From a virus, in IMG/VR virus record IMGVR_UViG_3300009285_005041, positions 1-40,369 of that record: DNA of 40,369 bases, one strand, 5' to 3'. This document shows, piece by piece, positions 97-30,703 of the stretch. Both the position numbers and the translations under genes were made by a program. The notes beneath the pieces were generated by a model. That model saw only the letters and a list, made by a program, of their open reading frames with translations, was not told the DNA's origin and searched no databases. How positions within the stretch are numbered: the stretch's first letter is position 1; each line of letters begins with the position of its first letter.

Positions 97-105
97 AGTA
101 TAACT
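97..105 (-). promoter_or_regulatory. AGTTATACT late-type promoter element
   Basis: Exact copy of the recurrent nonamer, just after the stop of the 444-residue gene. The nearest ATG is 7 nt downstream but opens only a seven-codon frame; the gene that leaves the window starts further on. Confidence 0.5.
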
Positions 106-112
106 TTATATA

Positions 113-1447
113 CTATTGCTGCCCAATTTGGAGAAGATTCTGCAATAGAGGCTGGGTGGCGGTTCTTGTTGCTTTAGAACCAAGCACGGAAAGAGGCAGA
201 CCGGCGGCTTGTTTGGCTAGAAAGTTATAATATGGACTTTCTTTTAATAGAGTGGCCAATCCTAGCGCGACACCGGGTCCGGCGGTAGCGACCCCTAAAC
301 TTGGATTACCTGTAACCATTCCCAGTAACGTACCAAGGGATGCGGCGGTTGCTGTAGTAATACCTCCAAGAGATATCCCGGTAGAAGGCCTTTCTGCCAT
401 CCTTATAATGGATTTGGCAGCAGACCACTGGTCAAACACGGTTCTTATTGATGGATCAAATGTTTCTAATCCCTGCTTTGCCAGCTCTTTTAGGCGAGAT
501 CCGGCAGCCCGCATCATGTCGTGTTTCATAACCCCCTCGACACCTCGCTTTTTCAGCTCTTTTTCTGCCTCTCCAAACACGTCGTCAGCAAACCCTAAAG
601 ATAAGTCAAACGCTTGTCCGGGATTTGGGTTTGTACCGTAACCCTTTGTTCTACTTATTACTTCATCAGCCGCCTTGGTCAGCTTTTTGTATATTACTGG
701 ATTTCTATATATAGCATCGTTTCTTATGCGTTCAAGCTCTGTTATAACATTTGAGATATCAAGTTTTGTGCTCTTAGTTGCCCCCACAGCAGCATTAAAC
801 CTTGGTGAGACAGAGGTTAGGAATTTGTTGGCTGTTTTTATTATATTGCTTGGAAACACGCCTTTTATCTTTGTGCCTATAGGCCCAAGAATCTTCTTGC
901 CTAGTGTACCTGCTCCGCCCAATAAAGCATCAAAAGCAACAGCCCCACCTGCTTGAGTTGCAACATCGCCAAGAAACGGTTTTACTCTCTCTGGCGCCGT
1001 TGATATCTGTTCCTGCAACAGCTCCGGTCTTTGTGCCACTCCTTGTATACCTTTCATTGTTGGACCAATGCCAACGTCTAATAGACCGCCGAGTTGGTTT
1101 AGAATTTCTTGATATGAACGTCCCGCCGCAGCTCCGGCACCGGAACCTATCGGCCCGCCAAAGAAACTTCCGGCAGCGGCCCCTATGCCTGGTATTTGTG
1201 CTGTTGCGGCCTCTCTTGTGGGTTTACTAACACCTAGTAACGATCCGCCCATCGTTGCCGGAGCGCCTATTAAGCCGATAATGTCAGTTATCTTTGTCAG
1301 TGGGGACGTGGTTTGTTCTTGGCTAGTTACTGCTGATTGATCTGTTGTTGCCTGGCCTATTGCTTCATACAATCCAGGATCAAAATTTTCCTCTGGCATT
1401 GATCCGGTTTGTCCGGTGCTAAGTTTTCTTACTCGTATTGTTGCCAT
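113..1447 (-). CDS. Candidate internal virion / DNA-ejection protein
   Basis: 444 residues, not recognised by family. Residues about 60-120 and 365-400 are rich in Gly, Ala and small hydrophobics (for example GAAAGSFFGGPIGSGAGAAAG). Such segments could insert into membranes, as in the ejection proteins of short-tailed phages. The middle part (about 225-340) is charged and probably helical. It is the last of three consecutive genes (361, 330 and 444 aa) downstream of the tail and fibre genes, which is where podoviruses often keep ejection proteins. It starts 3 nt after the preceding stop and has no promoter element of its own, so it is probably co-transcribed with the gene before it. Composition and position are what is seen; the ejection role is inference. 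Confidence 0.5.
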   Translation of the reverse strand: MATIRVRKLSTGQTGSMPEENFDPGLYEAIGQATTDQSAVTSQEQTTSPLTKITDIIGLIGAPATMGGSLLGVSKPTREAATAQIPGIGAAAGSFFGGPIGSGAGAAAGRSYQEILNQLGGLLDVGIGPTMKGIQGVAQRPELLQEQISTAPERVKPFLGDVATQAGGAVAFDALLGGAGTLGKKILGPIGTKIKGVFPSNIIKTANKFLTSVSPRFNAAVGATKSTKLDISNVITELERIRNDAIYRNPVIYKKLTKAADEVISRTKGYGTNPNPGQAFDLSLGFADDVFGEAEKELKKRGVEGVMKHDMMRAAGSRLKELAKQGLETFDPSIRTVFDQWSAAKSIIRMAERPSTGISLGGITTATAASLGTLLGMVTGNPSLGVATAGPGVALGLATLLKESPYYNFLAKQAAGLPLSVLGSKATRTATQPLLQNLLQIGQQ

Positions 1448-1449
1448 AA

Positions 1450-2448: not shown

Positions 2449-2457
2449 AGTATAACT
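2449..2457 (-). promoter_or_regulatory. AGTTATACT late-type promoter element
   Basis: Lies in the 16-nt gap between two genes. TATACT ends 6 nt before ATG 2442, so a start at the usual distance would fall on the ATG. No SD is present. Confidence 0.6.
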
Positions 2458-2458
2458 C

Positions 2459-3544
2459 CTAGAATCTTACAAATTCCGGTATTCCATAGCCGCCTAAAGC
2501 ATTTTGACTGCTTGGAAACCTTCTTGATATGGTTTGCACTATCGGTGTAAAGTGTTCTGTCAAAGCCTCTTGTCTTCTTTGCAGCGTGCCTGATTCTATT
2601 GCGGCTTCTCTTTCGCGTTCTAAATCTCTTCGTTTTCTTTCTTCTTCTGTGCCTAGTGTTCCAATCTGTCTTTCAAATTCTCTCCCCCCTGTCGCTGTTG
2701 TTAGCCCGCGCTTTTCCATTATATCTGCCTGCTCAACATTTATCTCGCCAAGCCCCCGCTCTTTTATGCCGCTAAAGAACAGCCCTCTGCCAGCAAAACC
2801 CTCTTCCGCATTTGCCAGTGCTTTTTGGAAATCTCGTTCCTGTTGCCCAGTTTCCAGCCTGTTTAAATCTCTTTGTAGCTGTTGCTGATCCTGTACTGTT
2901 TTGCGTCTAACATCAATATCTGCCAGATAGTCGTTTAGCAATTCGCCATAATACGGGTCGTATTCGGCACGCGCCGATTGTTTCGCCAGTTCTTCATCAA
3001 AAGCGAACGGGTTTTCATCTATCAATTTGGAAACGAACGATTGTTCATCTTTAACCTGCTTGTCTATAGTTTTCATCATATCATCAATTATTTGTTGTGG
3101 TGACTGTGATTGGGGCCGCGATGCCTGTGTCCCACCAAGTCCTTCCCTTTCTTTTACCAGCTTTGCATACTCCTTGGAGTTTGAGAGACTTTTGCCTTTT
3201 GCCTCAAGATCGGAGATTCTAGCATTTATTTGGCTTAGTCTGTCTGTTGACGGGGCAGGAGATACTTGTGCCGCTTGCGTTTGATTACCGAGAAGGCTAC
3301 TTAGATTGGTTTGAGCACTTGGATTATATGGCGGGCCGATAGGCGGGTTGTACTGCGGACCAATAAACGATTGTGCGGACTGTGTAGTAGGGACTTTACT
3401 GACCGATGGGGGAGAAATCAGACCGCTTAGATATGAGGAAGCCGTGCCTATTGGGTTTCTTGCCGCGCCTACTACGTTAAGTACGTTATTCAGCAAAGAC
3501 ATGGGGTTTTTTACCGTATTCAATATACTGTCTATAAATGCCAT
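2459..3544 (-). CDS. Candidate internal virion protein with coiled coil
   Basis: 361 residues, unrecognised. Residues 1-60 are mildly hydrophobic (LLNNVLNVVGAARNPIG). A Pro/Ser/Gln-rich stretch covers about 60-150. Residues about 150-330 are strongly charged and helical, with many R/E/Q (for example EEERKRRDLEREREAAIE), typical of coiled coil. The C-terminus is GGYGIPEFVRF. It begins 6 nt after an AGTTATAAT element. Its place after the fibre genes and before two similar helical proteins suggests an injected or internal virion protein. A scaffolding role is less likely, because a scaffold candidate already lies beside the capsid gene. Confidence 0.5.
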   Translation of the reverse strand: MAFIDSILNTVKNPMSLLNNVLNVVGAARNPIGTASSYLSGLISPPSVSKVPTTQSAQSFIGPQYNPPIGPPYNPSAQTNLSSLLGNQTQAAQVSPAPSTDRLSQINARISDLEAKGKSLSNSKEYAKLVKEREGLGGTQASRPQSQSPQQIIDDMMKTIDKQVKDEQSFVSKLIDENPFAFDEELAKQSARAEYDPYYGELLNDYLADIDVRRKTVQDQQQLQRDLNRLETGQQERDFQKALANAEEGFAGRGLFFSGIKERGLGEINVEQADIMEKRGLTTATGGREFERQIGTLGTEEERKRRDLEREREAAIESGTLQRRQEALTEHFTPIVQTISRRFPSSQNALGGYGIPEFVRF

Positions 3545-3550: not shown

Positions 3551-3559
3551 ATTATAACT
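3551..3559 (-). promoter_or_regulatory. AGTTATAAT late-type promoter element
   Basis: Overlaps by one base the stop codon of the 96-residue gene. TATAAT ends 6 nt before ATG 3544, and there is no SD. Confidence 0.6.
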
Positions 3560-7028: not shown

Positions 7029-7298
7029 TTATGCCGTTGTTGTCGAGCTGGTTGAGGTCGACGTTGACGTTGAACTTGATGTTGACGTACTTGTACTTGT
7101 TGATGTGGAGGTTGTGGTTATTTCCGATCCAAACTGTAAGTAGCCCCTTATCTTTTCTACTCCGCCAATTCTTTCAAAATGAGCATTTATAGCCAAATCG
7201 ACCTGACTAGGCGTTGCCTGAAATTTAGTTGTGGCGCGCTGTATGCCCCCAGAAAGGTCATCAACTCTGTGAGTTTGCTGATTTATACTTGTTGCCAT
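7029..7298 (-). CDS. N-terminal arm of tail nozzle protein ending in a Thr/Ser tract
   Basis: 89 residues. Residues 10-60 read LSGGIQRATTKFQATPSQ and then a segment with N38-A-H-F-E-R and R51-GYLQFG. This is the usual N-terminal signature of podoviral nozzle/hub proteins: a GG motif, a residue series that binds the adaptor, then 'N-x-n-G-x-n-(K/R)-x-R-x-GY-x-x-F/Y-G'. Residues 61-89 are only Thr and Ser, ending TTTA-stop. The next gene starts two bases later and continues the expected family sequence. It lies 11 nt downstream of an AGTTATAAT element. I infer a split gene; an independent small virion protein is the alternative. Confidence 0.55.
   Translation of the reverse strand: MATSINQQTHRVDDLSGGIQRATTKFQATPSQVDLAINAHFERIGGVEKIRGYLQFGSEITTTSTSTSTSTSTSSSTSTSTSTSSTTTA
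7032..7118 (-). repeat. Thr/Ser-codon tract (29 codons)
   Basis: Encodes residues 61-89 of the 89-residue protein, all Thr or Ser except the final Ala. It is the shortest of four such tracts in the window. Confidence 0.8.
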
Positions 7299-7309: not shown

Positions 7310-7318
7310 ATTATAACT
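7310..7318 (-). promoter_or_regulatory. AGTTATAAT late-type promoter element
   Basis: TATAAT ends 11 nt before ATG 7298. It heads the nozzle/fibre operon of seven coupled genes down to 3559. Confidence 0.6.
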
Positions 7319-7328: not shown

Positions 7329-8549
7329 TTACCAGTAGAGTTCTCTCATGTCCGAGCTGGAAACTCTTGATTGTTCACCAAACTGCCTTGAGAAACCTCT
7401 GTGACCACGGAATCTTGCAAATTCCGGCTGTCCTGATTGTTTCTTCATTCTCTTTCGTAGCCCTCTTAGAGATGCTTCTACACGCACACTATATTTATCT
7501 GCGTTTGTGGTATCATTCATGATCTCGTCAAAGATTCTGTAAAACGCGTAGTCTATATACCCTTTGGAGCTTGGTATGACAGCAGTATCTCCAAAGGAAT
7601 CCAAGGGAGACGGGGCGTAGTTATAGACAGGTATTACATAATTGCTTGTAGATTCCGGGGTGGGATCAATGCCAAGATATCCCTTTGCAGAATTGCTATC
7701 AAAAGGTAGAAGTGTCCAACTCTTAACGTAATCATCTTCCGGCTTGTTTGCATCAGCTTTTAGATTGTAAAACTCTATCAGAGGTACCCAGGTCAGTGGG
7801 TATGTTATATCTATATCTCCTGAAACATATCTGTATAAGAAGTATTTCATAGATACATAGTCCGACCAGTTACCGGATACTGAATAATCGTAATCCGAGG
7901 CAACTGTGGATACTGCCGTACCGCGCTTTGTAAACCACCAAGCATCGGGCATCTTTTCGTAAACCAAATCCTGAAAATCATTAAAATAGTTTACGATATC
8001 CTCATCTTTTATATGCGACACTAGGGAATTTTTCTTTACCTGCTGGAGCATATATCCGACTTGCAGTCTGCCAAGCCCAGTGCCAGGCAAAACATCCGAA
8101 TAAGTTCCGTAGGTACTTGTGGCCGAGTTGAGGGGCCGCCATTTCCAAAAGTATGTGGTGTCTCCCGAATCATCAATGATTGTAGTTGTTAGATCAGCAT
8201 CATCCCATTCAATGTTAAAAGGCGAGTCTGTTATTCCGGCATAAGTGCCGCTTTGTGTAGCAGACCTCTCAACAGCCCATTTATCCCATCTTGACAGGTA
8301 AACAGGGGTAGATTTGGGATGTGAAAACCTAAGAGCAGAGCTAATGGTTATTGTGTCATTGCCACTACTGCCGGTTATTTGTCGAAGCTCTGTTTGTTCT
8401 TGACCGGGCTCACCTACAACAACAAAATAATTTGTGGTGAGGCCCTCATTGTTTCTGACAGTCAAAGAAGTACCAGACGAATAATCAGCCTCTAGGTATG
8501 TTCTTTCTTCCCTTGAAAGATCGGGATTGTATATCTTAAACTTGGCCAT
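7329..8549 (-). CDS. Virion structural protein, possible head-tail adaptor
   Basis: 406 residues. Residues 1-150 look beta-rich (IYNPDLSREERTYLEADY, TTYFWKWRPLNSATSTYG) and could be an Ig/fibronectin-like domain. Residues about 160-390 contain helical segments with features of podoviral adaptor proteins: QQVKKNSLVSHIKDEDIVNY, then YEKMPDAWWFTKRG, then a VIP-(S/A)-rich region (AVIPSSKGYIDYAFYRIF), and a basic helical end (RVEASLRGLRKRMKKQ). The ATG abuts the stop of the 32/34-residue gene (TAAATG). Position directly before the nozzle genes supports an adaptor role. The family assignment is tentative. Confidence 0.5.
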   Translation of the reverse strand: MAKFKIYNPDLSREERTYLEADYSSGTSLTVRNNEGLTTNYFVVVGEPGQEQTELRQITGSSGNDTITISSALRFSHPKSTPVYLSRWDKWAVERSATQSGTYAGITDSPFNIEWDDADLTTTIIDDSGDTTYFWKWRPLNSATSTYGTYSDVLPGTGLGRLQVGYMLQQVKKNSLVSHIKDEDIVNYFNDFQDLVYEKMPDAWWFTKRGTAVSTVASDYDYSVSGNWSDYVSMKYFLYRYVSGDIDITYPLTWVPLIEFYNLKADANKPEDDYVKSWTLLPFDSNSAKGYLGIDPTPESTSNYVIPVYNYAPSPLDSFGDTAVIPSSKGYIDYAFYRIFDEIMNDTTNADKYSVRVEASLRGLRKRMKKQSGQPEFARFRGHRGFSRQFGEQSRVSSSDMRELYW

Positions 8550-8648
8550 TTATCTTTTTCTCCAGTAGTTACGCTTTCCGGCCCGCTTTTTACTCTTTTT
8601 TGATCTGGGCTTTGCCGATTCTTTAAAGTTGCCGCGCATCATTGACAT
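8550..8648 (-). CDS. Small very basic protein (32-34 aa)
   Basis: From ATG 8648: M-S-M-M-R-G-N-F-K-E-S-A, then PRSKKSKKRAGKRNYWRKR, then stop; 15 of 32 residues are Lys or Arg. ATG 8654 would add two residues, but 8648 is preferred because it lies 9 nt after the TATAAT at 8658-8663, like its neighbours, whereas 8654 leaves only 3 nt. Its TAA is followed directly by the ATG of the 406-residue gene. It could be a nucleic-acid-binding or head-completion peptide; function is unknown. A second small basic gene lies at 27336-27476. Confidence 0.55.
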   Translation of the reverse strand: MSMMRGNFKESAKPRSKKSKKRAGKRNYWRKR

Positions 8649-8657
8649 TTCCATAAC

Positions 8658-8666
8658 ATTATAACT
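8658..8666 (-). promoter_or_regulatory. AGTTATAAT late-type promoter element
   Basis: Precedes the small basic gene: 3 nt to ATG 8654, 9 nt to ATG 8648. Confidence 0.6.
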
Positions 8667-8678: not shown

Positions 8679-9563
8679 TCAGGCTACGTCAATGAAAAAC
8701 CCCATTCTAGGTTGCGGACTATCTATAGTTGTTGGTTCGACTGTTGTAGTTGAGCTGGAACTGGTAGAGGTACTCGTACTTGAGCTTGTGGAACTTGATG
8801 TGGACGTTGAACTAGAGCTTGTAGAGCTTGTGGTAGAGGTGCTGGAGCTAGTCGAGCTGGAAGTCGAGGTCGAACTGGACGTTGAGCTGGAGCTGGAAGT
8901 TGATGTTGAGGTAGTGGTAGTGGTAGGATCAGCAGCCACAACTTCGATAGATAAGGCAGTAGAAATAGCACTCTCGCTACCCCATGTCCAATCTACCGTC
9001 GTATCGTTTAACTTCCATTCTGTAGAATCTCCAAAAAGACCTGTGTCGTTAACAAGTGCTGTAAACCCGCCGCCAACTGTAATAGTAGATGTGGTGCTTC
9101 TAGCAATTCCACCGTAACCCGCGTTACTGGCACTACCAAAAGCAGCTAGTGTAACAACCAAAGTAGTCTGCGTACCTGAATTAGTATTACTAGCGTTTTG
9201 TGCGACAGCTCCAGACCCGTTAGTTCCGGAGGTATTAACACCTGCGAACTCATCAACTGCCCATTTAGCATTAGCCTGTGTCTGCCCTCCAAAATCAATA
9301 GTTAGTACCTCGTTTATACCGCCAGCAGCCAACGTACGAAAAAGTGTAACTCGCCACCTACTACTGGCGTCCAGCACAGTTGCTATCTGTGTATACGTAC
9401 GACCCGCACTGGTTACGGTAGGAGTATTTGGTGTTGCACTCGCATGATTGGAAAGAACAGCAACAATACCTAACCTATTTGCCGAAAGCACTATGCTTCC
9501 GGTAGTTATCGAGTTGGTGCTTGCTGCACCGCCGTTACCTCTGTTACTTGCTGATAATGCCAT
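8679..9563 (-). CDS. Beta-rich virion protein with C-terminal Thr/Ser tract
   Basis: 294 residues. Residues 1-210 are a beta-rich, Gly/Ser/Thr/Ala-rich domain (for example TFRT-like strand RVTLFRTLAAGG, WAVDEFAGVNTSG) resembling jelly-roll or minor tail proteins. No family is named with confidence. Residues 214-274 contain only Thr and Ser. A short ordered tail follows, VEPTTIDSPQPRMGFFIDVA. It follows an AGTTATACT element by 9 nt, with no SD. The Thr/Ser run may be an extended linker or stalk on the virion surface and is a possible O-glycosylation substrate, given the glycan operon next door; both are inference. Confidence 0.55.
   Translation of the reverse strand: MALSASNRGNGGAASTNSITTGSIVLSANRLGIVAVLSNHASATPNTPTVTSAGRTYTQIATVLDASSRWRVTLFRTLAAGGINEVLTIDFGGQTQANAKWAVDEFAGVNTSGTNGSGAVAQNASNTNSGTQTTLVVTLAAFGSASNAGYGGIARSTTSTITVGGGFTALVNDTGLFGDSTEWKLNDTTVDWTWGSESAISTALSIEVVAADPTTTTTSTSTSSSSSTSSSTSTSSSTSSSTSTTSSTSSSSTSTSSSTSSSTSTSTSSSSTTTVEPTTIDSPQPRMGFFIDVA
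8742..8924 (-). repeat. Thr/Ser-codon tract (61 codons)
   Basis: Encodes residues 214-274 of the 294-residue protein. Serine is spelled with both TCN and AGY codons in irregular order, so it is not a simple short tandem copy. Confidence 0.85.
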
Positions 9564-9572: not shown

Positions 9573-9581
9573 AGTATAACT
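9573..9581 (-). promoter_or_regulatory. AGTTATACT late-type promoter element
   Basis: In the 20-nt gap between two Thr/Ser-tract genes. TATACT ends 9 nt before ATG 9563. Confidence 0.6.
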
Positions 9582-9583: not shown

Positions 9584-11362
9584 CTATAGCGTACGAATTA
9601 CCCGGCCGCTGTTAAACAAATTCATCATCTCTCCTCTTCTATGAACAATTGGAGGAGGCGTAGTTGTCGAGCTTGTAGAAGTCGACGTCGACGTACTGGA
9701 ACTGGTAGATGTGGAAGTCGAGGTCGAGGTTGAGCTAGAACTTGTTGATGTCGAACTTGAGCTGCTTGTAGAACTCGAAGAGCTAGTCGAGCTGGAGGTC
9801 GACGTAGAGCTGGAGCTAGAAGTTGAGGTCGACGAAGAGCTGCTGGAACTCGAAGTTGAACTGCTAGAGCTAGTCGAGCTGGAGGTTGATGTAGAGCTGG
9901 AGGTTGACGTACTTGTCGAAGAGCTGGAACTGCTAGTCGATGTACTAGAACTAGAAGTCGAGCTGGTCGAGCTAGAGGTCGATGTGGAGCTAGAGCTGCT
10001 TGTCGACGTAGAGCTGGAGCTTGTGCTGCTCGTTGTTGAACTTGTAGTAGACGTGCTCGAAGAGGTTGAACTGGAGGTCGATGTGGAGCTGGAGCTGGTT
10101 CCGCTAGTCGTAGAGCTAGAGGTTGACGTACTTGAGCTAGTTGAGCTACTGGTCGAGCTACTGGTCGATGTTGAGCTGGAACTGGTATTACTGGTTGTAG
10201 AGCTGCTGGTCGAGCTAGAGGTCGATGTGGAGCTGGATGTCGAGCTGGAACTACTTGTAGAACTCGAAGTCGAAGAAGTTGAACTTGTAGTAGACGTGCT
10301 CGAAGAAGTCGAGCTAGAGGTCGATGTGGAGCTGGAGCTACTGGTTGTCGAACTGGTTGATGTGGAACTAGAGCTCGATGTAGATGTAGTTGTTGGGACA
10401 GTGTAAGTAACAACAAGTTTGGGATCGGTAGATGTGCCTGCCGTATCTGCCAAGAACATGGTAATGTTTTCAGTGGCGGGAAAGACGGTGTAGGCGGTGT
10501 TTGTAATATCTTTTAGGAACCTGTAGCTAAATTTAGTTATGCTTGTTTTTGATATTGCAGCCCTACCGTCGGCATTTAGTGTTATGTTGTTATATGTGGC
10601 ACCATCATTATTTACGGAGGCCACAGTTATGCTACCAAAAGAAGTCGAGCCGTGGTTGGCAATGTTGTAGTCAGCAGCAACAAGGGACGTATTACTGGCA
10701 GGAGTAACGGATGCTATTGCAATGGAATCCGTTTGCTCGTCAGTACGTGAATTAGAAATAAAGCCAGAAACGGCTGCGGATATAGTTGCTCCCGATGTTA
10801 AAGATGAGGTATCGTAAAGATGTATAACACGCCAAAAGAAGTCGAATTGAGTAGCTGTAGTGCTAATATATACGCGTCCTGTAGCATTAGAATCGGTGGC
10901 CGATGCTCCCGACCCGTCTCGCATGTTTGCCCATGTGTCTGGCCCAGCTGGACCACGAACCTCACCATCAACTGATGTGGATTCCGGGTTGGCATCAGGA
11001 TAAGCAGTTAGTGTATCAAATCCAAGGTTCCACGCCGGTTGGAGCCTATTCGCAAGTATGGTGTCCCAGATATGCGCCAAGTACCATATTGGATACAACC
11101 CGAACAAAAGCCTTTTAGTAAACTTGTTGCTGGTTCTGAATTCCCGATGGAACTGGCCATTAGCTCGCCACTCAACATAGTTTGGCCCGATTTGAGATGC
11201 CCTGTTTTTGCCGATACTGCTTCTGTTGCTGTGGATTCTAAAGAAATATCGACCAATTGGACTATTGGCAAAGGTTAGTAACAGCTCTTGGTGTTTTTTG
11301 AAGAATCTTGGACCAAACAGGTATTTATCCCCGCTGGTCTGCATTCCGTAATATTCCGCCAT
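9584..11362 (-). CDS. Large virion protein with long Thr/Ser tract
   Basis: 592 residues. Residues 1-110 are basic and aromatic (FFRIHSNRSSIGKNRASQIG, LLFGLYPIWYLAHIWDTIL) and probably anchor the protein in the particle. Residues about 112-322 form a beta-rich domain (FDTLTAYPDANP, TWANMRDGSGASATDSNATG, FWRVIHLYDTSSL, KLVVTYTVP) of the kind seen in carbohydrate-binding or DNRLRE-like modules. Residues 324-568 are Thr/Ser almost without exception (one Gly, one Asn). The C-terminal 24 residues are ordered and basic (PPIVHRRGEMMNLF, RVIRTL). It begins 9 nt after an AGTTATACT element. Probably a surface fibre or decoration protein; the exact role is unknown. Confidence 0.55.
   Translation of the reverse strand: MAEYYGMQTSGDKYLFGPRFFKKHQELLLTFANSPIGRYFFRIHSNRSSIGKNRASQIGPNYVEWRANGQFHREFRTSNKFTKRLLFGLYPIWYLAHIWDTILANRLQPAWNLGFDTLTAYPDANPESTSVDGEVRGPAGPDTWANMRDGSGASATDSNATGRVYISTTATQFDFFWRVIHLYDTSSLTSGATISAAVSGFISNSRTDEQTDSIAIASVTPASNTSLVAADYNIANHGSTSFGSITVASVNNDGATYNNITLNADGRAAISKTSITKFSYRFLKDITNTAYTVFPATENITMFLADTAGTSTDPKLVVTYTVPTTTSTSSSSSTSTSSTTSSSSSTSTSSSTSSSTSTTSSTSSTSSSTSSSSSTSSSTSTSSSTSSSTTSNTSSSSTSTSSSTSSSTSSSTSTSSSTTSGTSSSSTSTSSSTSSSTSTTSSTTSSTSSSSTSTSSSSSTSTSSSTSSTSSSSTSTSSSSSSTSTSTSSSTSTSSSTSSSSSTSSSSSSSSTSTSSSSSTSTSSSTSSSSSTSSSSSTSTSSSSTSTSTSTSTSSSTSTSTSTSSTTTPPPIVHRRGEMMNLFNSGRVIRTL
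9659..10393 (-). repeat. Long Thr/Ser-codon tract (about 245 codons)
   Basis: Encodes residues 324-568 of the 592-residue protein. On the plus strand it reads as GTCGAGCTGGAG-like alternation and so opens long antisense frames of Val/Glu/Leu. TCGA and AGCT tetramers recur throughout, and codon order is irregular. Confidence 0.9.
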
Positions 11363-11371
11363 GACAGGCTA

Positions 11372-11380
11372 AGTATAACT
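11372..11380 (-). promoter_or_regulatory. AGTTATACT late-type promoter element
   Basis: In the 29-nt gap after the last glycan gene. TATACT ends 9 nt before ATG 11362, so tail genes are probably transcribed independently of the glycan operon. Confidence 0.6.
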
Positions 11381-11391
11381 CAAGAGGTTAT

Positions 11392-20523: not shown

Positions 20524-21485
20524 TATCTTACCCCCTCAACTTTAGCTACAACCAGCTGGTCTTTATTATCGTCGCCGACAATCTCCTCTCCTGACCAGTT
20601 TTGGAGCTTATCTACAGAATATATTGTCACAGATTGGAAATTAGCCCTCATCAAATCTCGGAACTCTTTAATACCCCACCTATGCAGATGTAAATGATTA
20701 TTGGCATCCCTGACATCAGTATCCGTATTTCCAATATTGGGAATTGTTATAAAGCCCACAGTAGAAAGCTTATCCGAGAAAAACCTTTTCATCGTGCCCA
20801 AACCTATATCAACATTGGCCAGATGTTCTATTACCTCTATACAAACAACAACCTCAAACGGCGCGATCTCTCTTGTCGGAGGGTTCTCAATATCAAGCAG
20901 TGCAAAAGAAAGATTCGGTCTGGCAAATGCTTGCTGGGCAAACTCCAGAGACTTTGGATTGATATCCACTCCCCATACATGCCTGGCCTGATGAGCCAAA
21001 ATGTTTGATCCTACGCCCAAAGAACAGCCGATATCCATAACCGTTCTTCCGGCAATCCAATAATCACGTATTTTTTCGTACAAGTTTCTCTGTCTGCTCG
21101 GAATCAAAAGGTTGATGTCGTTAAACCTTTTGGTCATCCTTCCAAGCCAATCATAATCCGCAGAAACATTAACCAATTGCTCCTTTGCAACTTCTATAAC
21201 TGCGTCCTGAAACAGACTAACAGGCTCTTCCGCAACAATGCTAACTGTGGCACCCTCCGGAGGAGTTTGTTCGGCAATCTTATTCTCCTGCTCGACTATC
21301 TTGTAGCAATCATCACACAAAAGATTGTTATAGCTGGCAGGAATATCCTTACCACACCTCTCACACTTCTTCGGCCCGCCTTTGGCAGCCTCACCCTGAA
21401 TCTTTTTGTAACAATCCATACACAGAGCATTTATATAATCGTTCGGTATAGAAGTGCCACACTTTTCACATACTCTATCTGCCAT
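20523..21485 (-). CDS. SAM methyltransferase with duplicated N-terminal zinc ribbon
   Basis: 320 residues. Residues 7-27 and 41-61 are near-copies of a four-cysteine ribbon (CEKCGTSIPNDYINALCMDC; CERCGKDIPASYNNLLCDDC). The methyltransferase domain follows at about 135-310: TVMDIGCSLGVGSN (GxGxG-like), VWGVDINPKSLEFAQQA, VVVCIEVIEHLAN and GFITIPNIG. The 'IEVIEHL' motif is typical of UbiE/UbiG and 3-O-methyltransferases of class I. It starts by overlapping the GT4 gene. The ribbons may bind a protein or nucleic-acid partner; this is inference. A glycan or lipid acceptor is likely given context. Confidence 0.7.
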   Translation of the reverse strand: MADRVCEKCGTSIPNDYINALCMDCYKKIQGEAAKGGPKKCERCGKDIPASYNNLLCDDCYKIVEQENKIAEQTPPEGATVSIVAEEPVSLFQDAVIEVAKEQLVNVSADYDWLGRMTKRFNDINLLIPSRQRNLYEKIRDYWIAGRTVMDIGCSLGVGSNILAHQARHVWGVDINPKSLEFAQQAFARPNLSFALLDIENPPTREIAPFEVVVCIEVIEHLANVDIGLGTMKRFFSDKLSTVGFITIPNIGNTDTDVRDANNHLHLHRWGIKEFRDLMRANFQSVTIYSVDKLQNWSGEEIVGDDNKDQLVVAKVEGVR

Positions 21486-22767
21486 AACACATCTCCAAAA
21501 TAGCAGGCTCTAACTGCCTCTTAAATATATAATCCACGTTAAACTCACGTCTTAGTCTTGTAGCGGCCTTTATAGCAGCATTATTGTCAAACTCCGACAA
21601 TGTTAGCTTTGCCACGTCTTTATAATAACTATCCTGACCAAGAGGATATTGCGGGCTATCTACCAAAGACCCAAACCTGAAATACAAAGCATTCTCGGCA
21701 GCAAAATCTCTCATAGCTGGAAAACTGTAGTTTAAAACAAGGATATTTTTTGCCGCCATAGCCTCCAACAATATCAACGGACAGTTTTCAGATACCGAAG
21801 GGAAGATAAATACATTCCCAAGTGTGAAAAGATCTCGCACAACCTCATGCGACACGCCGTGTTCCAACGACGGGGCCTCAAATAGTGAGGTAAAAACCAG
21901 ATCACGTCTTTCAAGACCACAGGTATAAGCAAAACTATACATTTCCTCTATCGCATCTTTCTCTTTTTGAGCGTTGGCATGAGCATTTGGTACGATCAGC
22001 TTCACGCTCCTACCAAGGCTTTTCATATGCCCGGCAATCCAGATGACTTTGCTCAACTGCTTGCCAGCATCTCCCATTCTTGTTGTGGATAAAGGATAAA
22101 CAATGAGTATTTCGGGTGACAAAAGATCATAGAAATCAGCCAAACGTCTTGTTAAATCATTAAAATTATACAAATCCCTAATATCCATTGGATTAAATAT
22201 TGTTCTGACGTCCTTTGGCCATATACCATACATTTCTGCTGCTCTTATAGCGTCCGTATAGTTCATGTATACAAGGCGGGAATTCTTTGGCAAAGTATAT
22301 AAATTGTCATAGGGCGACCCATCCATAGTAGGACGAATAGACGGACCAGAGTGCATCCAATGTAACCACTTAATATGAGATAACTTAGTATCCATCGCAT
22401 TTCTCATTGCCTGATTGTATGGCAGGTAACTGTTTATAAAAATGATGTCATGCGTAAGACATACGTCTATATCCTGCATATTTTCTTCCATTGCAACAGT
22501 CGCCTTTTTTACATCCGAGTCAAAGTTACTCAAATCCGCTTTTGAATACGGCTCAAGAATAAGCCTTGGTAAAACCCTCCTCACCTCAACACCACCAGGT
22601 ACTCTACCCTCCGTATCCTGGAACGTCTCAAGAACAAACAGCACCGGCTCATAACCATGTTTGTATAAAGCCGTGAGCTGCTGCGAAACAACTGTTGCCA
22701 GAGAAAACTCCGGCCTAAGATCGTTAAATGTTGTTAGAATGCCGATTTTCAATTTTCTATCTCTCAA
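21475..22767 (-). CDS. Family 4 glycosyltransferase, head of glycan operon
   Basis: 430 residues from TTG 22767, preceded by GAAGGAGGT with 5 nt spacing, a near-perfect SD. ATG 22785 extends the frame by six residues that encode the SD itself, so TTG is preferred. N-terminal strand LKIGILTTFNDLRPE is acceptor-domain-like. The donor domain has LIVYPLSTTRMGD, then PSVSENCPLILLEAMAAKN, the E-x7-E signature of retaining GT4 enzymes. A candidate TATAAT lies 32 nt upstream. Donor and acceptor unknown; likely initiates or extends the glycan. Confidence 0.75.
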   Translation of the reverse strand: MRDRKLKIGILTTFNDLRPEFSLATVVSQQLTALYKHGYEPVLFVLETFQDTEGRVPGGVEVRRVLPRLILEPYSKADLSNFDSDVKKATVAMEENMQDIDVCLTHDIIFINSYLPYNQAMRNAMDTKLSHIKWLHWMHSGPSIRPTMDGSPYDNLYTLPKNSRLVYMNYTDAIRAAEMYGIWPKDVRTIFNPMDIRDLYNFNDLTRRLADFYDLLSPEILIVYPLSTTRMGDAGKQLSKVIWIAGHMKSLGRSVKLIVPNAHANAQKEKDAIEEMYSFAYTCGLERRDLVFTSLFEAPSLEHGVSHEVVRDLFTLGNVFIFPSVSENCPLILLEAMAAKNILVLNYSFPAMRDFAAENALYFRFGSLVDSPQYPLGQDSYYKDVAKLTLSEFDNNAAIKAATRLRREFNVDYIFKRQLEPAILEMCYGR

Positions 22768-22799
22768 TTTTACCTCCTTCTGCATTTTTATCTGTCCGT

Positions 22800-23528: not shown

Positions 23529-23734
23529 ACAACTTCACCACCTCTCTCTTGTTTTATACGCTCGGTTATATCAACCAAAAAGCCGTATGTTGAGAGCAGA
23601 AATTGCGCCTTCGCTCTATCCTCTTCCTTCTGTGCATCTAATATCATGCTGTGCTTCGGTTTTATGACAATCTTTTTCCCTCGAAACACAGTATCAACTG
23701 TCTCTTTACCGTTTATATTCTTCAATATTATCAT
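23525..23734 (-). CDS. Small hypothetical protein
   Basis: 69 residues, unrecognised: MIILKNINGKETVDTVFRGK, then a charged C-terminal half ending EVV. ATG 23734 is preceded by GGGAGGAGG a few bases upstream, and the coding region overlaps its neighbours. It belongs to the four-gene run before the glycan operon. Confidence 0.5.
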   Translation of the reverse strand: MIILKNINGKETVDTVFRGKKIVIKPKHSMILDAQKEEDRAKAQFLLSTYGFLVDITERIKQERGGEVV

Positions 23735-23979
23735 ATCGCCTCCTCCCTGATCCTGGTTAGTAACTCCCTTCTTGAATTGGCAAGCTCTTTTGGGTCAACC
23801 CTAAGATCACCACGCCAGTAATCATCAATGGCCGCAGCGAGTTCAGGAGACTCAAAGAAAAAGAAATACACACGACTAGGATTTCTGTTATCTATACCCT
23901 TTACATCGTAACCTAGACACAAAAGTGCCGCCGCTAAGTTTATATCCGAAGTTTTCGTAAGAGATAAATCTTCTGTCAT
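23731..23979 (-). CDS. Small hypothetical protein
   Basis: 82 residues, unrecognised. It contains DINLAAALLCLGYDVKGID and VYFFFFESPELAAAIDDYW, which look like a small alpha/beta protein of the phage DUF5659 type (a 'knows its own membership by FYF-x-D/E' pattern); I would not name it without a search. No SD is clear upstream. It begins the small-gene run after the 24014-24406 gene. Confidence 0.5.
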   Translation of the reverse strand: MTEDLSLTKTSDINLAAALLCLGYDVKGIDNRNPSRVYFFFFESPELAAAIDDYWRGDLRVDPKELANSRRELLTRIREEAI

Positions 23980-24013
23980 TTCAATTTCTATCGCTAATCC
24001 CTGACTGATTATA

Positions 24014-24406
24014 CTATTTACGCACGATTATATAAACATCTATCGTTCCGCCTGTCAAGACTGTTGATATTCTAGCTCTAATATAAGGCACCGGCAATGC
24101 CGCATCGCCACTAACGTCGTTTGAAGGGGACAACGACAGCAGATAAGTCCGTGAGGCGGCTGATGTGGTAATTGTGCCCATGGATTGCCAAGTACCGGAA
24201 TAATCAGACGTCCTAGCAGCCTCAAGCGTAACAACTCCTCCACTAACGCCGGCAGAAGTCTCAACAAGAAGTGTTACAGAATCAACATCCAATACATCCA
24301 ACGCATCCGATGTAACCTCGTCCGCCGATTCGTCGTCCATCAGTTTATATATCGTCGATTCCCTGTTTGCGTTGCGCACACGGGATGTCTCACTAAGTAT
24401 CGCCAT
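24014..24406 (-). CDS. Beta-rich virion protein
   Basis: 130 residues, mostly beta by inspection (SVTLLVETSAGVSGGVVTLE, RTYLLSLSPSN, YIRARISTVLTGGTIDVY). The shape resembles small head-decoration or head-fibre domains. ATG 24406 has a good SD (AGGAAGGA). It follows a Thr/Ser-tract gene downstream of the major capsid protein, fitting a capsid accessory role. Confidence 0.5.
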   Translation of the reverse strand: MAILSETSRVRNANRESTIYKLMDDESADEVTSDALDVLDVDSVTLLVETSAGVSGGVVTLEAARTSDYSGTWQSMGTITTSAASRTYLLSLSPSNDVSGDAALPVPYIRARISTVLTGGTIDVYIIVRK

Positions 24407-24418: not shown

Positions 24419-24793
24419 TTATGAAGTCGTTGTGGAACTTGTAGAAGTCGAGGTCGAGGTTGAGCTCGAAGTAGATGTCGACGTCGAGGTCGAGCTACTA
24501 GTTGAGGTCGAGCTACTAGTTGAAGTCGAGCTGCTTGTGGAGCTAGATGTAGAAGTAGTTGTTGCAAACTGCTCCAACAGCCTCTTCCAAGTCGCCGTAG
24601 TACCGCTTGTTGCAGTTTGAATATACAACCTGTTTTCCGTAGTCAGATAAGCAAGCTCTCCGCCACCCCACGTCACTGAATCCACATCGTTTGATGCGGC
24701 TCCGTAGTACGAAGCAGGCGTAGTATCAAGATTTGATACTATCTTTGCCCTTGCTCCCTGTGCATTTAAGTTGTCGAACTTTGTTACACCCAT
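24419..24793 (-). CDS. Small virion protein with C-terminal Thr/Ser tract
   Basis: 124 residues. Residues 1-77 are beta-rich and unrecognised (KIVSNLDTTPASYYGAA, GGELAYLTTENRLYIQTA). Residues 78-124 are Thr/Ser only. ATG 24793 has an AGGAGA SD, and a strong terminator lies between it and the capsid gene. Together with the tracts at 7-11 kb it shows the same tail module on four virion genes, here close to the capsid. A head fibre or decoration protein is the likely role. Confidence 0.55.
   Translation of the reverse strand: MGVTKFDNLNAQGARAKIVSNLDTTPASYYGAASNDVDSVTWGGGELAYLTTENRLYIQTATSGTTATWKRLLEQFATTTSTSSSTSSSTSTSSSTSTSSSTSTSTSTSSSTSTSTSTSSTTTS
24422..24562 (-). repeat. Thr/Ser-codon tract (47 codons)
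   Basis: Encodes the C-terminal 47 residues of the 124-residue protein; its reverse strand is also open as a Val/Glu-rich frame. Confidence 0.85.
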
Positions 24794-24889: not shown

Positions 24890-25807
24890 TTAGCTCGAAT
24901 AAGCAGCCCCGTCACCCTTTGAACCCCACACGCCTCTCCAGTCACTCCAGCCAACCGAGAATCTTGCCCTGACTTTATACAGCGCCGCATCTGCATCAAA
25001 GTTAAAGTCGCTCTTAAACTCCGGGCGCACTCTCCAGAAGTATTGCAACAGGTGATTAGCACTATCCATCAAAAACCACGCCGTTGTGGAGGTGATGTAT
25101 CTCCAAGCTAACACTCTAAAGATTCCCTCATAGACATTCACATCGTTATTTGCTGTTCCAGGTCGCAGCGAGGACTCGGCTAAGATTTGTGCAGTCTTTC
25201 GCAAGTCAACAGGAATTACTAAATCTTTGGCTTGTAGATTAACAATCTGACCCTTGTCATTCAAAATCTTTTCCAATGCCAAGCGCCCGGTTTCCAAGTT
25301 GTTTTCTGTCAAAGTAATGCCGGTTGAAGAAGCATTGGACTGCGCAGTACCCCCATCAGCTCTTGTGTGAGATGTAGAAGCAAGAGGCTTTCCATCCCCA
25401 TAGCTTGTCGCAGTTGTAGTAAATGCGTTATTTAAAACATTCGCCGATACAGTTTCAGTCGAGTAAACAACAGATTTTGCCAAAGCACGCGCCATTTTTG
25501 CAATGACGTTGTGCTGGTCATCTTCCATCAATTCCTGTGAAACTTTAAAGCCCTTTGTGTATTTCAGGTGAGTGTATGTGGTGCTATACATCTTCACCGG
25601 GTCTTCGTAGTCCAAAGCCCCAAGCTCTGATGTCTGAACAAGCTGACCGAAACCAGTGGTCGCAGAATCCTTCTCACTGTCCATACTAGACGTAAGAACA
25701 TTGAAAACCATCGGCATCATCTGCGGCTCTTCATCATAACGGTCAAAGAAGATCGCTCTTACTGCTGGGTCTAATTCTGCTTGAAAGTTTCCTCTTACTG
25801 CTGCCAT
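24890..25807 (-). CDS. Major capsid protein, Mu gpT-like (HK97 fold)
   Basis: 305 residues. The N-terminus MAAVRGNFQAELDPAVRAIF and later YTHLKYTKGFKVSQELMEDD fit the N-arm and E-loop region of Mu gpT-like capsids. GDGKPLASTSHTRADGG and GKGQIV-like NDKGQIVNLQAKDLVIP are further matches. The C-terminal pattern FKSDFNFDADAALYKVRARF followed by GWSDWRGVWGS is characteristic. It begins 6 nt after an AGTTATACT element and ends at a strong terminator, as expected for a highly expressed gene. It self-assembles the shell with the scaffold at 26437-27261. Confidence 0.8.
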   Translation of the reverse strand: MAAVRGNFQAELDPAVRAIFFDRYDEEPQMMPMVFNVLTSSMDSEKDSATTGFGQLVQTSELGALDYEDPVKMYSTTYTHLKYTKGFKVSQELMEDDQHNVIAKMARALAKSVVYSTETVSANVLNNAFTTTATSYGDGKPLASTSHTRADGGTAQSNASSTGITLTENNLETGRLALEKILNDKGQIVNLQAKDLVIPVDLRKTAQILAESSLRPGTANNDVNVYEGIFRVLAWRYITSTTAWFLMDSANHLLQYFWRVRPEFKSDFNFDADAALYKVRARFSVGWSDWRGVWGSKGDGAAYSS

Positions 25808-25813: not shown

Positions 25814-25822
25814 AGTATAACT
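25814..25822 (-). promoter_or_regulatory. AGTTATACT late-type promoter element of the capsid gene
   Basis: TATACT ends 6 nt before ATG 25807. It has no SD, although the capsid should be the most abundant protein. Confidence 0.65.
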
Positions 25823-25846: not shown

Positions 25847-26374
25847 TTATGCGGTTCTTGTTATCCCCACAGAACCAAATTGCGTCTCAACAATTCTAAA
25901 AAGCCCCTTTGAAGCGTCGCCATCCCCATCTGGATCGCGCGATACAAGCTGAACCTGCGCACTCCAGGTATCCGTTGCAGTAGCAACGTCAACATCGTTT
26001 TCATCGTTCGTATCAAAATACTCAAGCTCCATAGCTCTGGTTAAAGAAGCATCCGCGTCATTGTAAAAAAGATAGTGAGGAAGTGCTGGCATATAAGCCA
26101 CATTCTTCAAGGCTACAGTCTGATTATCGGAAGCCATTGTGTAAGTATCCGTTGTGCCGCTATCGGGATCAATCGCCAGACCATTAGTATCGACAACTTG
26201 TGCAATAACACCAGCAGCGCCCTCTGTAGCATCAACTACATCAGCAAAGCCAGATGTATTTATTCTGATAAGATCGCCAACTTGGAAAACTATGCTATTC
26301 TTGCCGACAGCATAAAGTAAAGTAGGTGCGTCTTTTGAACCGTCAATGTTTTTTCTGTAACGAAATCCTGCCAT
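25847..26374 (-). CDS. Candidate capsid decoration protein
   Basis: 175 residues between scaffold and capsid genes, where podo- and siphophages often encode decoration or stabilising proteins. It is beta-rich with a compact opening (SIVFQVGDLIRINTSGFADV) and acidic loops (VSRDPDGDGDASKG), resembling DUF2190-like/decoration barrels. AGAGGA lies about 8 nt before ATG 26374. Role inferred from position and composition. Confidence 0.55.
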   Translation of the reverse strand: MAGFRYRKNIDGSKDAPTLLYAVGKNSIVFQVGDLIRINTSGFADVVDATEGAAGVIAQVVDTNGLAIDPDSGTTDTYTMASDNQTVALKNVAYMPALPHYLFYNDADASLTRAMELEYFDTNDENDVDVATATDTWSAQVQLVSRDPDGDGDASKGLFRIVETQFGSVGITRTA

Positions 26375-26387
26375 AACAAAAATCCTC

Positions 26388-26413
26388 TGACATTCAGTAT
26401 AATATGAATGTCA
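26388..26413. promoter_or_regulatory. Perfect 9-bp dyad with a TATACT inside
   Basis: Arms TGACATTCA (26388-26396) and TGAATGTCA (26405-26413), spacer 8 bp. The minus strand contains TATTATACT across the dyad centre, a variant of the late element, 21 nt before ATG 26374. It may be an mRNA hairpin after the scaffold gene or an operator over a promoter. Confidence 0.5.
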
Positions 26414-26436
26414 ACACACGACAAGACTTCTACAGA

Positions 26437-27477: not shown

Positions 27478-28170
27478 TTAGAATTGACCTACTCTTCTTA
27501 ACACCTCCTCGGCATAATCTTTACCAAGACCGCCTTCGGTAAATCCCGTTGACCCAGCATTATATGAGGCCAAAGCACTAAAAATATCACCGCCGTACTT
27601 TTCCATTAAACCACTCAATATCCTTGCCGCCTCCTGTATCGCAAAATTCGGATCGGATTGGAGAGCCGCAGCATACACAGCTTCGTTTGGAAATCCAGCC
27701 TCTCGAAAGAAATACTCCGGGGTTATCTGGGTAATGCCAACCTCTCCACTTGGTCCTACTGCCTCGGATGTCTCAAAGCCAGTACCACCTGTTTCCTGTG
27801 CTATCAAGGACGCCAAAATATTCGGATCAATATTAGCATATTGTTGGGCCGCAGAAATCGTTGGTGTTACAAGGTTTTGCGGCAGATTGGGACGATCCTC
27901 CGTAACAAACCTGGAAATTAGATCGGAAACGCTCCCGGAAGGGGTGCCGACAGCCTCAACAGATGAGTCAAAAACCCCCTGCGGGAGCTCATAAGGATTA
28001 GAGATAGGAGTTTGTACCACCGGACGAAGAAAATCCTGCACTCTTGGCATACCAAAAGACGTACTTTCCGTTGTTGTAGGAAGCCCAGGCCCACCACTTA
28101 TAGTTGTTGTACCCCCAATATTTCTTGCGAACTCGGCAAGTTTATCTAAAAAGCTACCGAAAACAGCCAT
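27478..28170 (-). CDS. Lytic transglycosylase (SLT fold)
   Basis: 230 residues. Residues 1-100 are low-complexity and virion-anchor-like. The catalytic domain covers about 105-225. Catalytic Glu126 is in ILASLIAQETGGTG, the conserved G-x-x-G-x-x-Q-x-x-P is GEVGITQITP (142-151), and the AYNAG-type motif is ALASYNAGSTG (199-209). These are the marks of SLT family 1 enzymes, which cleave peptidoglycan glycan strands to 1,6-anhydro products. Position between portal and scaffold suggests a virion-associated enzyme that opens the cell wall during entry. It begins 10 nt after an AGTTATACT element. Confidence 0.8.
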   Translation of the reverse strand: MAVFGSFLDKLAEFARNIGGTTTISGGPGLPTTTESTSFGMPRVQDFLRPVVQTPISNPYELPQGVFDSSVEAVGTPSGSVSDLISRFVTEDRPNLPQNLVTPTISAAQQYANIDPNILASLIAQETGGTGFETSEAVGPSGEVGITQITPEYFFREAGFPNEAVYAAALQSDPNFAIQEAARILSGLMEKYGGDIFSALASYNAGSTGFTEGGLGKDYAEEVLRRVGQF

Positions 28171-28180: not shown

Positions 28181-28189
28181 AGTATAACT
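28181..28189 (-). promoter_or_regulatory. AGTTATACT late-type promoter element
   Basis: Between the 102-residue gene and the transglycosylase. TATACT ends 10 nt before ATG 28170. Confidence 0.6.
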
Positions 28190-28196: not shown

Positions 28197-28505
28197 TTAA
28201 ACCTTGGTCTTTTTGAGTTTCTGTGTACGTTTCTCTTCACGCTCCTTACGTGTTCCGGCCTCCTCGACCATTCTCATCAAAACCCGTATGCCAAGCGCCT
28301 GACCGGTAAGTTCAGTGTGTTTAACAATAAAATTGGCATCCGACTGTAAAAGCTTAAAAGATATCTTTCTTAGATTATCAATATATCTATTAGCAAATCT
28401 CTTTAGAATTGCCCACTCAACGCTGTCTTTAAGATTCTCAAGAATCTCAAGCTCTTGCAACGTAGTTCTGACTTTTTGCGGACGATCAATGTCTTTCTTT
28501 ATCAT
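28197..28505 (-). CDS. Small helical protein, unknown
   Basis: 102 residues, unrecognised. Charged and helical throughout (TLQELEILENLKDSVEWAIL, ANRYIDNLRKISFKLLQS), ending in a Lys-rich run (KRTQKLKKTKV). It starts 7 nt after the portal gene and has no promoter element, so it is probably co-expressed with the portal. Head-completion or packaging accessory is plausible. Confidence 0.5.
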   Translation of the reverse strand: MIKKDIDRPQKVRTTLQELEILENLKDSVEWAILKRFANRYIDNLRKISFKLLQSDANFIVKHTELTGQALGIRVLMRMVEEAGTRKEREEKRTQKLKKTKV

Positions 28506-28512
28506 ATAAATT

Positions 28513-30687
28513 TCACATCATGCCGGTGGGCAAACCCTCCGCCCCCATCATCATATCTGGCCTTGTAGCCTTTGCAACCCCACCCATTATACCAGCTTGA
28601 GTGCCGGGCGGCATACCAGGCTGCGCCTGGTTCTGCCCGCTTGGACCAGCCGGAGCCAGAGGCATTTGTCCCTGCGCCGAAGCAGCACTTCCCTCCCTAA
28701 GCTTTATCGCCTCGTCCTCTGTCCTAACATGCCTGATAAAATTCTCCATTATTCCAAGGTTTGTTCCTGCTGTTTGTTGGAATGCCGGGGACTTCATAAA
28801 CGCCAAATGCACTTCAAGGTGCGGTCTGGTTGCAAATGCAGTACCAGGTACAGGTTGACCCTGCATCAAAAGCTCGTTTTCACGGTTTGCCAACTCCAGA
28901 AGCTTGGTCTGGTCTATTGCGCCCTCCGGCACATTCGACTGCTGTGCGGATTCCTTCTTAAATGTTTCGGGGTCGTGGTCGTGTGACTCCATAAGAATGT
29001 CAGCCACCTTACCAAGATCGTAGTATCCCGATTGAATGGCTGCCATGATAACCGGATTTTGAACAAGCTCGTTTGTCCTTTGTTGCAAAAGAGGCTTTGA
29101 TACCGGAAGAGTTGGCTCTCCTCTTAATCTATAATCAAATCCGCCATATAGGGGCGTAATCTTGTCAGGGGTTACTTCAAAGAAGTGCTCCCCCTTTTCC
29201 TGTCTCTCCACAAGGCTCCCATCCCTACCAGTTAGCAACGCTACGTCTGTCGTACGTATAGTTCTATACCTTTGTATTCTATTCTCCCCAACAATCTGCT
29301 CGACTTTCGGCGCCGAATAAAACTGAACAATGTTTGGCACCCTAAGCCTTACAATGTCAGTTACAAGCTCCCTTGATAAAAGCCATATTTTCAACCGCAA
29401 CGAACGCTGCGTAGCCTCTTTAAATATCGCCGCCTCTGTAGCCGTTGATGCGGCTTGAGGCGCCTCAATGCCCGTGACCTCTCTACCATCCTGCTTTAAG
29501 AGCTCCTCTTCCCGATAAGACGAGGGATTTACATCCCTGTACTCAAGCGGTTTAATCGAGGTCTGGGGATCGTCAACATACAAGAACCTGCTAGGCGCAA
29601 CAATTGCCTCGTCCTCATCAAGATTCTCCCTGTTTGAAACCAAAAACATCTTCCAAATATCAAGGTGTTGTCTATCAAGCCTCATCCTTCTAATAGTGGT
29701 TAGTTCATCCTGTATTGATTCAAGAAGTGTCGGCTCGCCCCTTGCATAAAACTGATTGATACGCGGTACATCGGAGCCCTTGGCAAAAGGCAACTGCTTA
29801 TGATTAAAGGGATTTGGCCCGTCTCTCATAACAACGTCATTTGCGACCACAATAAGCTTATCCGGCCTTCTTCCCCAGTAAAACAAGACTTCTACCTGAT
29901 TTTCATAATCCATTCCCTGTGGCGGCGCGTAAAACTGCCAGTAATTCAAATCCCCGCCAGGTTTAACGTACTGACTGGCCCCAAACTGGTCAAAAACGGT
30001 CCCTTTAAAGGTCTCCATGAACGTATCGTAGTTCATAATGTAGCGTCTGATAGCATCGTTTGCTTTGTATCTGCCCCTATTTATAGTTCTGGCACTGGGG
30101 TCAACAAAAAAGTCAAAAAGCGGTACAGTTTCACCGTAAACATCGTCATAATCAAAGATTTCCTTTTTAACAAATTCCTCTTTCCCCGTCTCGAAATTGA
30201 GCTTTTTCATCACCCTGACGGCTCTTTTATCCTGCCAGTAATCCTCCTGCCAGATGGTATCTCCCAAGACCAAGGCTTGCTTTATTGCGGCATAAAGCTC
30301 CAAATCCCCTCCTGCTACATCCCAAGTGTACTCAATCAAGTGATTCATCAACTTCGCTTTATCTCTATCCTCGGCACCTCTTGGCAACACCATCGGCATA
30401 AGCGTCTGATCCACAATCTCGGCTAACGCACGCTCAACAACCGTTGTGGTGAAAGGAGGAACAATATTTGACTGCCAGTCATCATCCGATTGAGAAGGTC
30501 TCCAAGCCTCATACCTTCGCATAGCCCCGTTCCACTTCTCCTCAACCGAAACTCCGTCAATTCCGACTCTTCCGGCCTTCATATAGGAATAGCGCTGATA
30601 AACATTCTGCCTGTCTTCCTGTAGTTTATCCTCTGGATTGTATTGCGAATTTATTTTAGCGTCGCTATTGTTTCTAAATTCCAGCAT
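28513..30687 (-). CDS. Portal protein (P22/T7-like size)
   Basis: 724 residues. It has the start of portal proteins of short-tailed phages: a charged N-terminal region, then RYEAWRPSQSDDDWQSNIVP and FTTTVVERALAEIVDQTLMP (clip and stem side). Later NFETGKEEFVKKEIFDYDDV precedes WYGRRP-like YWGRRPDKLIVVAND. The long C-terminal part is Gln/Pro/Gly/Met-rich (PLAPAGPSGQNQAQPGMPPG). Portals form the dodecameric DNA gate at one capsid vertex. The gene is 32 nt after TerL and 7 nt after an AGTTATAAT element. Family named from pattern and order. Confidence 0.75.
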   Translation of the reverse strand: MLEFRNNSDAKINSQYNPEDKLQEDRQNVYQRYSYMKAGRVGIDGVSVEEKWNGAMRRYEAWRPSQSDDDWQSNIVPPFTTTVVERALAEIVDQTLMPMVLPRGAEDRDKAKLMNHLIEYTWDVAGGDLELYAAIKQALVLGDTIWQEDYWQDKRAVRVMKKLNFETGKEEFVKKEIFDYDDVYGETVPLFDFFVDPSARTINRGRYKANDAIRRYIMNYDTFMETFKGTVFDQFGASQYVKPGGDLNYWQFYAPPQGMDYENQVEVLFYWGRRPDKLIVVANDVVMRDGPNPFNHKQLPFAKGSDVPRINQFYARGEPTLLESIQDELTTIRRMRLDRQHLDIWKMFLVSNRENLDEDEAIVAPSRFLYVDDPQTSIKPLEYRDVNPSSYREEELLKQDGREVTGIEAPQAASTATEAAIFKEATQRSLRLKIWLLSRELVTDIVRLRVPNIVQFYSAPKVEQIVGENRIQRYRTIRTTDVALLTGRDGSLVERQEKGEHFFEVTPDKITPLYGGFDYRLRGEPTLPVSKPLLQQRTNELVQNPVIMAAIQSGYYDLGKVADILMESHDHDPETFKKESAQQSNVPEGAIDQTKLLELANRENELLMQGQPVPGTAFATRPHLEVHLAFMKSPAFQQTAGTNLGIMENFIRHVRTEDEAIKLREGSAASAQGQMPLAPAGPSGQNQAQPGMPPGTQAGIMGGVAKATRPDMMMGAEGLPTGMM

Positions 30688-30694
30688 CGTAGTA

Positions 30695-30703
30695 ATTATA
30701 ACT
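30695..30703 (-). promoter_or_regulatory. AGTTATAAT late-type promoter element of the portal gene
   Basis: In the 31-nt gap between TerL and portal. TATAAT ends 7 nt before ATG 30687. Confidence 0.65.

Follow-up and report, generated by a model that had tools for sequence, protein, structure and literature searches.

The stretch of DNA analyzed here, referred to below as the window, is one whole IMG/VR virus record (IMGVR_UViG_3300009285_005041; 40,369 bases), and our subject is the short element AGTTATA(A/C)T that stands before its virion genes and that we read as a putative late promoter. Ten exact copies lie on the minus strand, and all ten are intergenic. The form AGTTATAAT at 30695..30703 ends 7 nucleotides (nt) 5' of the portal gene (28513-30687), a position at which the element is kept in nearly all relatives. 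The form AGTTATACT is found at 28181..28189, 10 nt 5' of a transglycosylase-like gene (27478-28170; PHROG match), at 25814..25822, 6 nt 5' of the major capsid gene (24890-25807), at 11372..11380, 9 nt 5' of a serine/threonine (Ser/Thr)-rich tail candidate of 592 amino acids (aa; 9584-11362), and at 9573..9581, 9 nt 5' of a Ser/Thr-rich gene of 294 aa (8679-9563). AGTTATAAT recurs at 8658..8666, 3 nt before a 34-aa open reading frame (ORF; 8549-8654, minus strand) whose very basic product begins MEMSMMRGNF and which abuts the tail gene 7329-8549, as well as at 7310..7318, 11 nt before gene 7029-7298, and at 3551..3559, 6 nt before an ejection candidate (2459-3544). A second ejection candidate (1450-2442) has AGTTATACT 6 nt upstream at 2449..2457, and the same form at 97..105 lies 7 nt before a 7-codon ORF, MKAHWLK, possibly a leaderless coupling ORF, whose TGA stop overlaps the ATG of a next ORF that runs off the window. 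An earlier note on this DNA had listed these ten sites, and its coordinates, strand and intergenic placement are all correct, as are its distances to the ATG for the portal (7), tail (9, 9, 11), candidate ejection (6, 6), capsid (6) and transglycosylase (10) genes; it missed an eleventh exact copy (223..231), which lies on the plus strand, antisense within gene 113-1447, and which we take to be a chance occurrence.

The window thus holds 11 copies against 0.97 expected, and none of 100 shuffles reached 11. When a matrix was built from relatives only, with the window excluded, the same ten sites scored highest among intergenic sites, and a gap separated them from the next best. The relatives, about 20 of which share the element, were gathered by searches with the portal, the terminase, the capsid and a small protein, HPW, that is described below, and a simple ORF-calling script was used to define their genes. 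Among 84,980 species genomes there were no portal relatives, and terminase matches were found at 28-37% identity only; DNA and portal searches gave no near phage record, and two single-protein scans for relatives returned none.

Within the related contigs the element is conserved and closely positioned. In nearly all contigs of 47-69% portal identity, nGTTATA(A/C)T lies 5-14 nt upstream of the portal start, and across 18 contigs 36 of the 51 exact copies end 4-11 nt 5' of an ATG that opens a gene (ORF of at least 50 aa), the modal spacing being 6 nt (16/51). Reversed, complemented and permuted control words fall at 4-11 nt in only 2 of 121 cases (p ~1e-22), and TATA(A/C)T without the preceding GT does so in 19 of 495. 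An unseeded expectation-maximization search of 187 upstream regions from 19 contigs returned GTTATA(A/C)TwAA as its best motif, and G010, a contig retrieved via another protein, shows the same layout of elements. The positional search in relatives that the earlier note had proposed therefore finds a conserved motif 5' of ATGs that is strand-specific and rare within genes, and its claim that genes with overlapping starts lack the element agrees with the count of 0 in 220 coupled or overlapping genes. That the word is short and AT-rich, and that the copy at 223 on the plus strand falls within a gene, might suggest a chance intergenic word; the shuffles, the control words, the matrix gap and the conservation already refute this explanation, to which we give practically no weight.

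In its anatomy the element resembles a -10 promoter. In our numbering, the hexamer begins with T-12. In a logo of 59 sites, selected with a pattern that itself fixed G-14 to A-9 and T-7, T is found at -17 in 40/59 and a purine at -16 in 50/59, followed by G-14, T-13, TATA(A/C)T and an A-rich 3' side; the unseeded search agrees, with G at -14 in 94% of its motif and T-12, A-11 and T-7 at 0.98 each in its matrix. Position -15 holds A in 46/59 sites and T in 8/59, the T occurring in the locus L169 and in a minority of sites elsewhere, so that this minority has TG instead of AG, like ordinary extended -10 sites. The variable base within the hexamer is -8, a weak position of a -10, and it is more coherent within than between genomes (all A in G002, nearly all C in G004; equaled by 21 of 5000 shuffles). 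Judged from these letters, the conserved bases of the element are those that a sigma-70-type factor would read in an extended -10. The likeness to the extended -10 sequence TRTGnTATAAT of sigma-70 and sigma-A, for which a -35 is dispensable (PMC7403470), extends to T-17, R-16, G-14 and a TATAAT-like hexamer; only -15 differs, being A in most sites here.

There is no general enrichment for a -35, since the best TTGACA match at a spacing of 15-19 is at the random level. The absence of a -35 asserted in the earlier note thus describes most sites and has to be modified for some: among 67 sites in the relatives, seven have TTG at -35 and 21 have a TTG starting at -26 or -25, a weak signal about one helical turn closer than a -35, strongest in G010 and scarcely seen in the window. 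A MotA box was considered for the TTG at -26/-25 and dropped because its spacing does not fit that of T4.

A second class of promoter occurs in the same phages. TTGACA-N16-18-TAnnnT is present 34 times, 26 of them within 60 nt of an ORF starting with ATG, compared with 5-15 occurrences, 1-3 of them near an ATG, for six permuted -35 words. The two classes are split by gene function. In G002 and G004 the TTGACA promoters stand before early genes and the gene that opens the glycan operon, in G004 also before the operon led by terS, whereas GTTATA(A/C)T sites stand before the portal, capsid, tail and ejection genes. A spacing of 5-9 nt to the ATG is common among the ordinary promoters as well, and their counterparts in the sister clade peak at 6-7 nt. 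Because these TTGACA promoters, which look unmistakably sigma-70-like, lie at the same distance from the ATG as the element, they support the view that leaderless starts are usual in this group. In the window itself, TTTATA-N17-TATAAT (24008..24036, minus strand) is a candidate ordinary -35/-10 promoter 5' of the glycan operon (first gene 23731-23979), and the homologues of that first gene in G002 and G004 have TTGACA-TAnnnT at the corresponding place. A possible start of terS (34500-34840, minus strand), MASERG, is preceded at 7 nt by TATCTT, and TTGCAC stands 17 bp 5' of that hexamer; this may be a weak promoter of the ordinary class, near enough to the ATG for a leaderless start. Scanning the window by itself for generic consensus promoters gave counts no higher than shuffles.

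The existence of ordinary promoters at the same distance from the ATG also bears on the alternative put forward in the earlier note, an mRNA-processing motif, which we take as a site where longer late transcripts would be cut back to near the ATG. Such a site would account for the intergenic placement on one strand and would likewise produce leaderless 5' ends. However, the conserved bases and the variable position fit a -10 with an upstream extension, TG variants exist, and true TTGACA-TAnnnT promoters share the distance to the ATG. We therefore rate processing as improbable.

Genes that carry the element largely lack a Shine-Dalgarno (SD) sequence. In the related contigs an SD-like word precedes 3 of the 37 genes whose element lies within 11 nt, as against 152 of the 440 remaining genes, and the mean pairing energies are -0.6 and -3.1 to -3.6, respectively. 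In the window the figure is 1 of 8, and this single SD-like word, AGGAG at 2449, overlaps the element and is too far upstream. The earlier note had described both the lack of an SD at element genes and the lack of the element at SD-led genes, and the comparison bears out both. Among five sites at least 12 nt from the start, SD-like words are present in three and the mean pairing is -4.0. These numbers are relevant to a further explanation, in which the element is a translation signal within a leader that stands in for the SD sequence. Replacement of the SD gene by gene is what such a signal predicts, but the spacing is variable (3 to 19 nt), most of the five more distant sites again show SD-like pairing, and the bases that are conserved match a -10 element; we consider this explanation very improbable, marginally more so than processing.

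The capsid gene provides a comparison between lineages. Of 55 capsid starts, the 41 at sister loci include none with the element and 27 with an SD, whereas nine of the 14 at core loci have the element, and seven of those nine lack an SD. The best de novo start signal of the sister clade is AAGGAG. Since the sister capsids are mostly SD-led and without the element, and since AAGGAG is the signal of the sister clade, the trait looks derived in the core lineage. The same capsid gene would thus shift between SD-led and predicted leaderless starts in sister lineages.

Based on these observations we propose that the element is very probably the core of a late class of phage promoter that works in a -35-poor, extended -10 mode and yields leaderless or near-leaderless late messenger RNAs (mRNAs), a reading of the kind offered in the earlier note and favored by the conservation, the position and the strand bias of the element. 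The late core, T(-17) R(-16) A(-15) G(-14) T(-13) TATA(A/C)T(-7), would be read by host RNA polymerase, we infer, with a sigma-70-type factor in the extended -10 mode, mostly dispensing with a -35. Transcription would start on the ATG or a few bases away because the element ends 5-11 nt upstream. The usual distance from the hexamer to the start site is 6-7 nt, so that with the modal spacing of 6 nt the expected start site is the A of the ATG. The virion mRNAs predicted to start there would be translated as leaderless or near-leaderless messages, and the early, terS and glycan genes would be driven by the ordinary TTGACA-17-TAnnnT promoters. This arrangement suggests a possible temporal switch in which the -35 ceases to be recognized, or is bypassed, at the late stage of infection.

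Several points weigh against this proposal. At -15 the ordinary promoters of these phages have A in 8 cases and T in 13, which differs from the late sites (p = 1e-4). Because A-15 is unlike TRTG and also unlike the phages' own ordinary promoters, plain recognition by a host sigma factor may not suffice. Five core loci (L084, L161, L162, L001 and L124) lack the element at the capsid and have an SD-like sequence instead. Furthermore, the contigs are interrelated and hence non-independent, several being fragments or near-duplicates.

The preference at -15 leads to a variant in which a phage specificity factor reads the element, either an unrecognized sigma factor or a co-activator that displaces region 4, for example HPW. 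This is a sub-case of the late-promoter reading, with the same start sites and the same leaderless outcome, and its probability overlaps that of the broader proposal; we regard it as possible, at odds clearly below even. In its favor are the preference for A-15 in late sites and not in ordinary promoters, the base at -8, which drifts together within genomes, and the weak enrichment of TTG at -26/-25. On the other hand, sigma-70 regions 2 and 4 (PF04542, PF04545) were absent from ten records in which they were sought, which may be incomplete, and controls matched; the special sigma factor suggested in the earlier note is thus possible in principle, with no such domain to represent it in those records. 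PF00940 (T7-type polymerase) had no match in the phage records, and the control genomes gave none either.

The distribution of HPW is a further point in favor of a specificity factor. The HPW gene (32780..33142, minus strand) lies between terS and terL and accompanies the late element; the family has the motif PKxDHPW(R/K), and its predicted fold is a helix, a beta hairpin and a long helix (mean predicted local distance difference test score 71). With a hidden Markov model, HPW was found in 12 of the 12 core loci with a complete region that were tried and in 1 of the 46 sister loci having terL. The sole positive sister locus, L169, is the sister locus that carries TGTTATACT before its portal. 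A weak HPW match in L151/G011, which is without the element, was left out of the count. In G004, G009 and L085 the HPW operon is headed by a TTGACA promoter, and HPW would therefore be made before the late genes. Against such a role, HPW has no matches in PHROGs, PDB or BFVD, its gene lies in the packaging region, and there are several other core-only genes. HPW thus tracks the late element as a correlation in sequence data, which descent alone could explain. We would go further only as a conjecture, and a rather doubtful one, that in this lineage a portion of the late virion regulon passed from SD-led to leaderless expression via a -35-poor A-15 G-14 promoter that is read only after HPW or another core-only protein reprograms the host polymerase.

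Late promoters of the T4 type have the sequence TATAAATA and are served by the sigma factor gp55 with gp33 and the clamp. The present element is like these in being a putative -10-only promoter, and differs in having GTTATA(A/C)TwAA instead of TATAAATA and in that no sigma domain was found. Phages phiEco32 and 7-11 likewise have short conserved elements on structural genes and sigma-70 promoters for early genes, but they encode a recognizable sigma factor (PMC4331800), and none was found here. The closest functional parallels are in phages of Thermus. An extended -10 with TRTG bypasses the -35, and the middle and late promoters of P23-45 belong to that class; gp39, a protein that displaces sigma region 4, affects them less (PMC7403470). 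The late genes studied here are similarly preceded by putative -10-type promoters, mostly with no evident -35. In phiYS40 the middle and late mRNAs are mostly leaderless (PMC3594737), as we predict here. The Thermus phages differ from this lineage in descent and in having T where most sites here have A at -15, and the host here is not known to be Thermus. In Deinococcus a -10 motif located 6-7 bp 5' of ORFs has been linked to leaderless mRNA (PMC12340547), and leaderless genes of the TA-led type are common across bacteria (PMC3160421). The element shares with these a -10 hexamer about 6-7 bp from the ORF and the absence of an SD. In Deinococcus-Thermus, however, this is a genome-wide habit of the host with TANNNT, whereas here a near-invariant GTTATA(A/C)T is concentrated on the late genes of one phage lineage, alongside a second promoter class from which it is sharply split.

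A leaderless strategy is known in a few phages, and the one predicted here is clearly conserved and set apart from ordinary early promoters. If the proposal is correct, it makes the promoters of uncultivated phages readable as a code of two classes, in which early, packaging and glycan genes can be told apart from late genes by sequence alone. It also provides in HPW a named small protein that tracks the change and can be tested, and it would further suggest efficient translation of leaderless messages in the hosts.

Several other features of the window and its relatives deserve mention. Long repeats of Ser and Thr only (STSTSS and similar) occur in the tail- or head-associated proteins encoded at 7029-7298, 8679-9563, 9584-11362 and 24419-24793. 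These genes adjoin a large cassette for glycosyltransferases and sugar synthesis (11392-22785), and both are kept in relatives; the combination hints at glycosylated virions. A hairpin, TTGACATTCA...TGAATGTCAG (26387-26414, minus strand), lies 5' of gene 25847-26374 and overlaps a TATACT. No tRNA genes were found. Genes for an Amidoligase_2 protein and a class-II glutamine amidotransferase (35192-36523 and 36504-37478, plus strand) overlap each other and are the only clear plus-strand pair in the window, and in the early region 39465-39866 encodes a short Dam-type DNA adenine methylase (PF05869). In L135, a more distant relative, the large terminase gene (10001-12214) seems to hold an intein-like insert.

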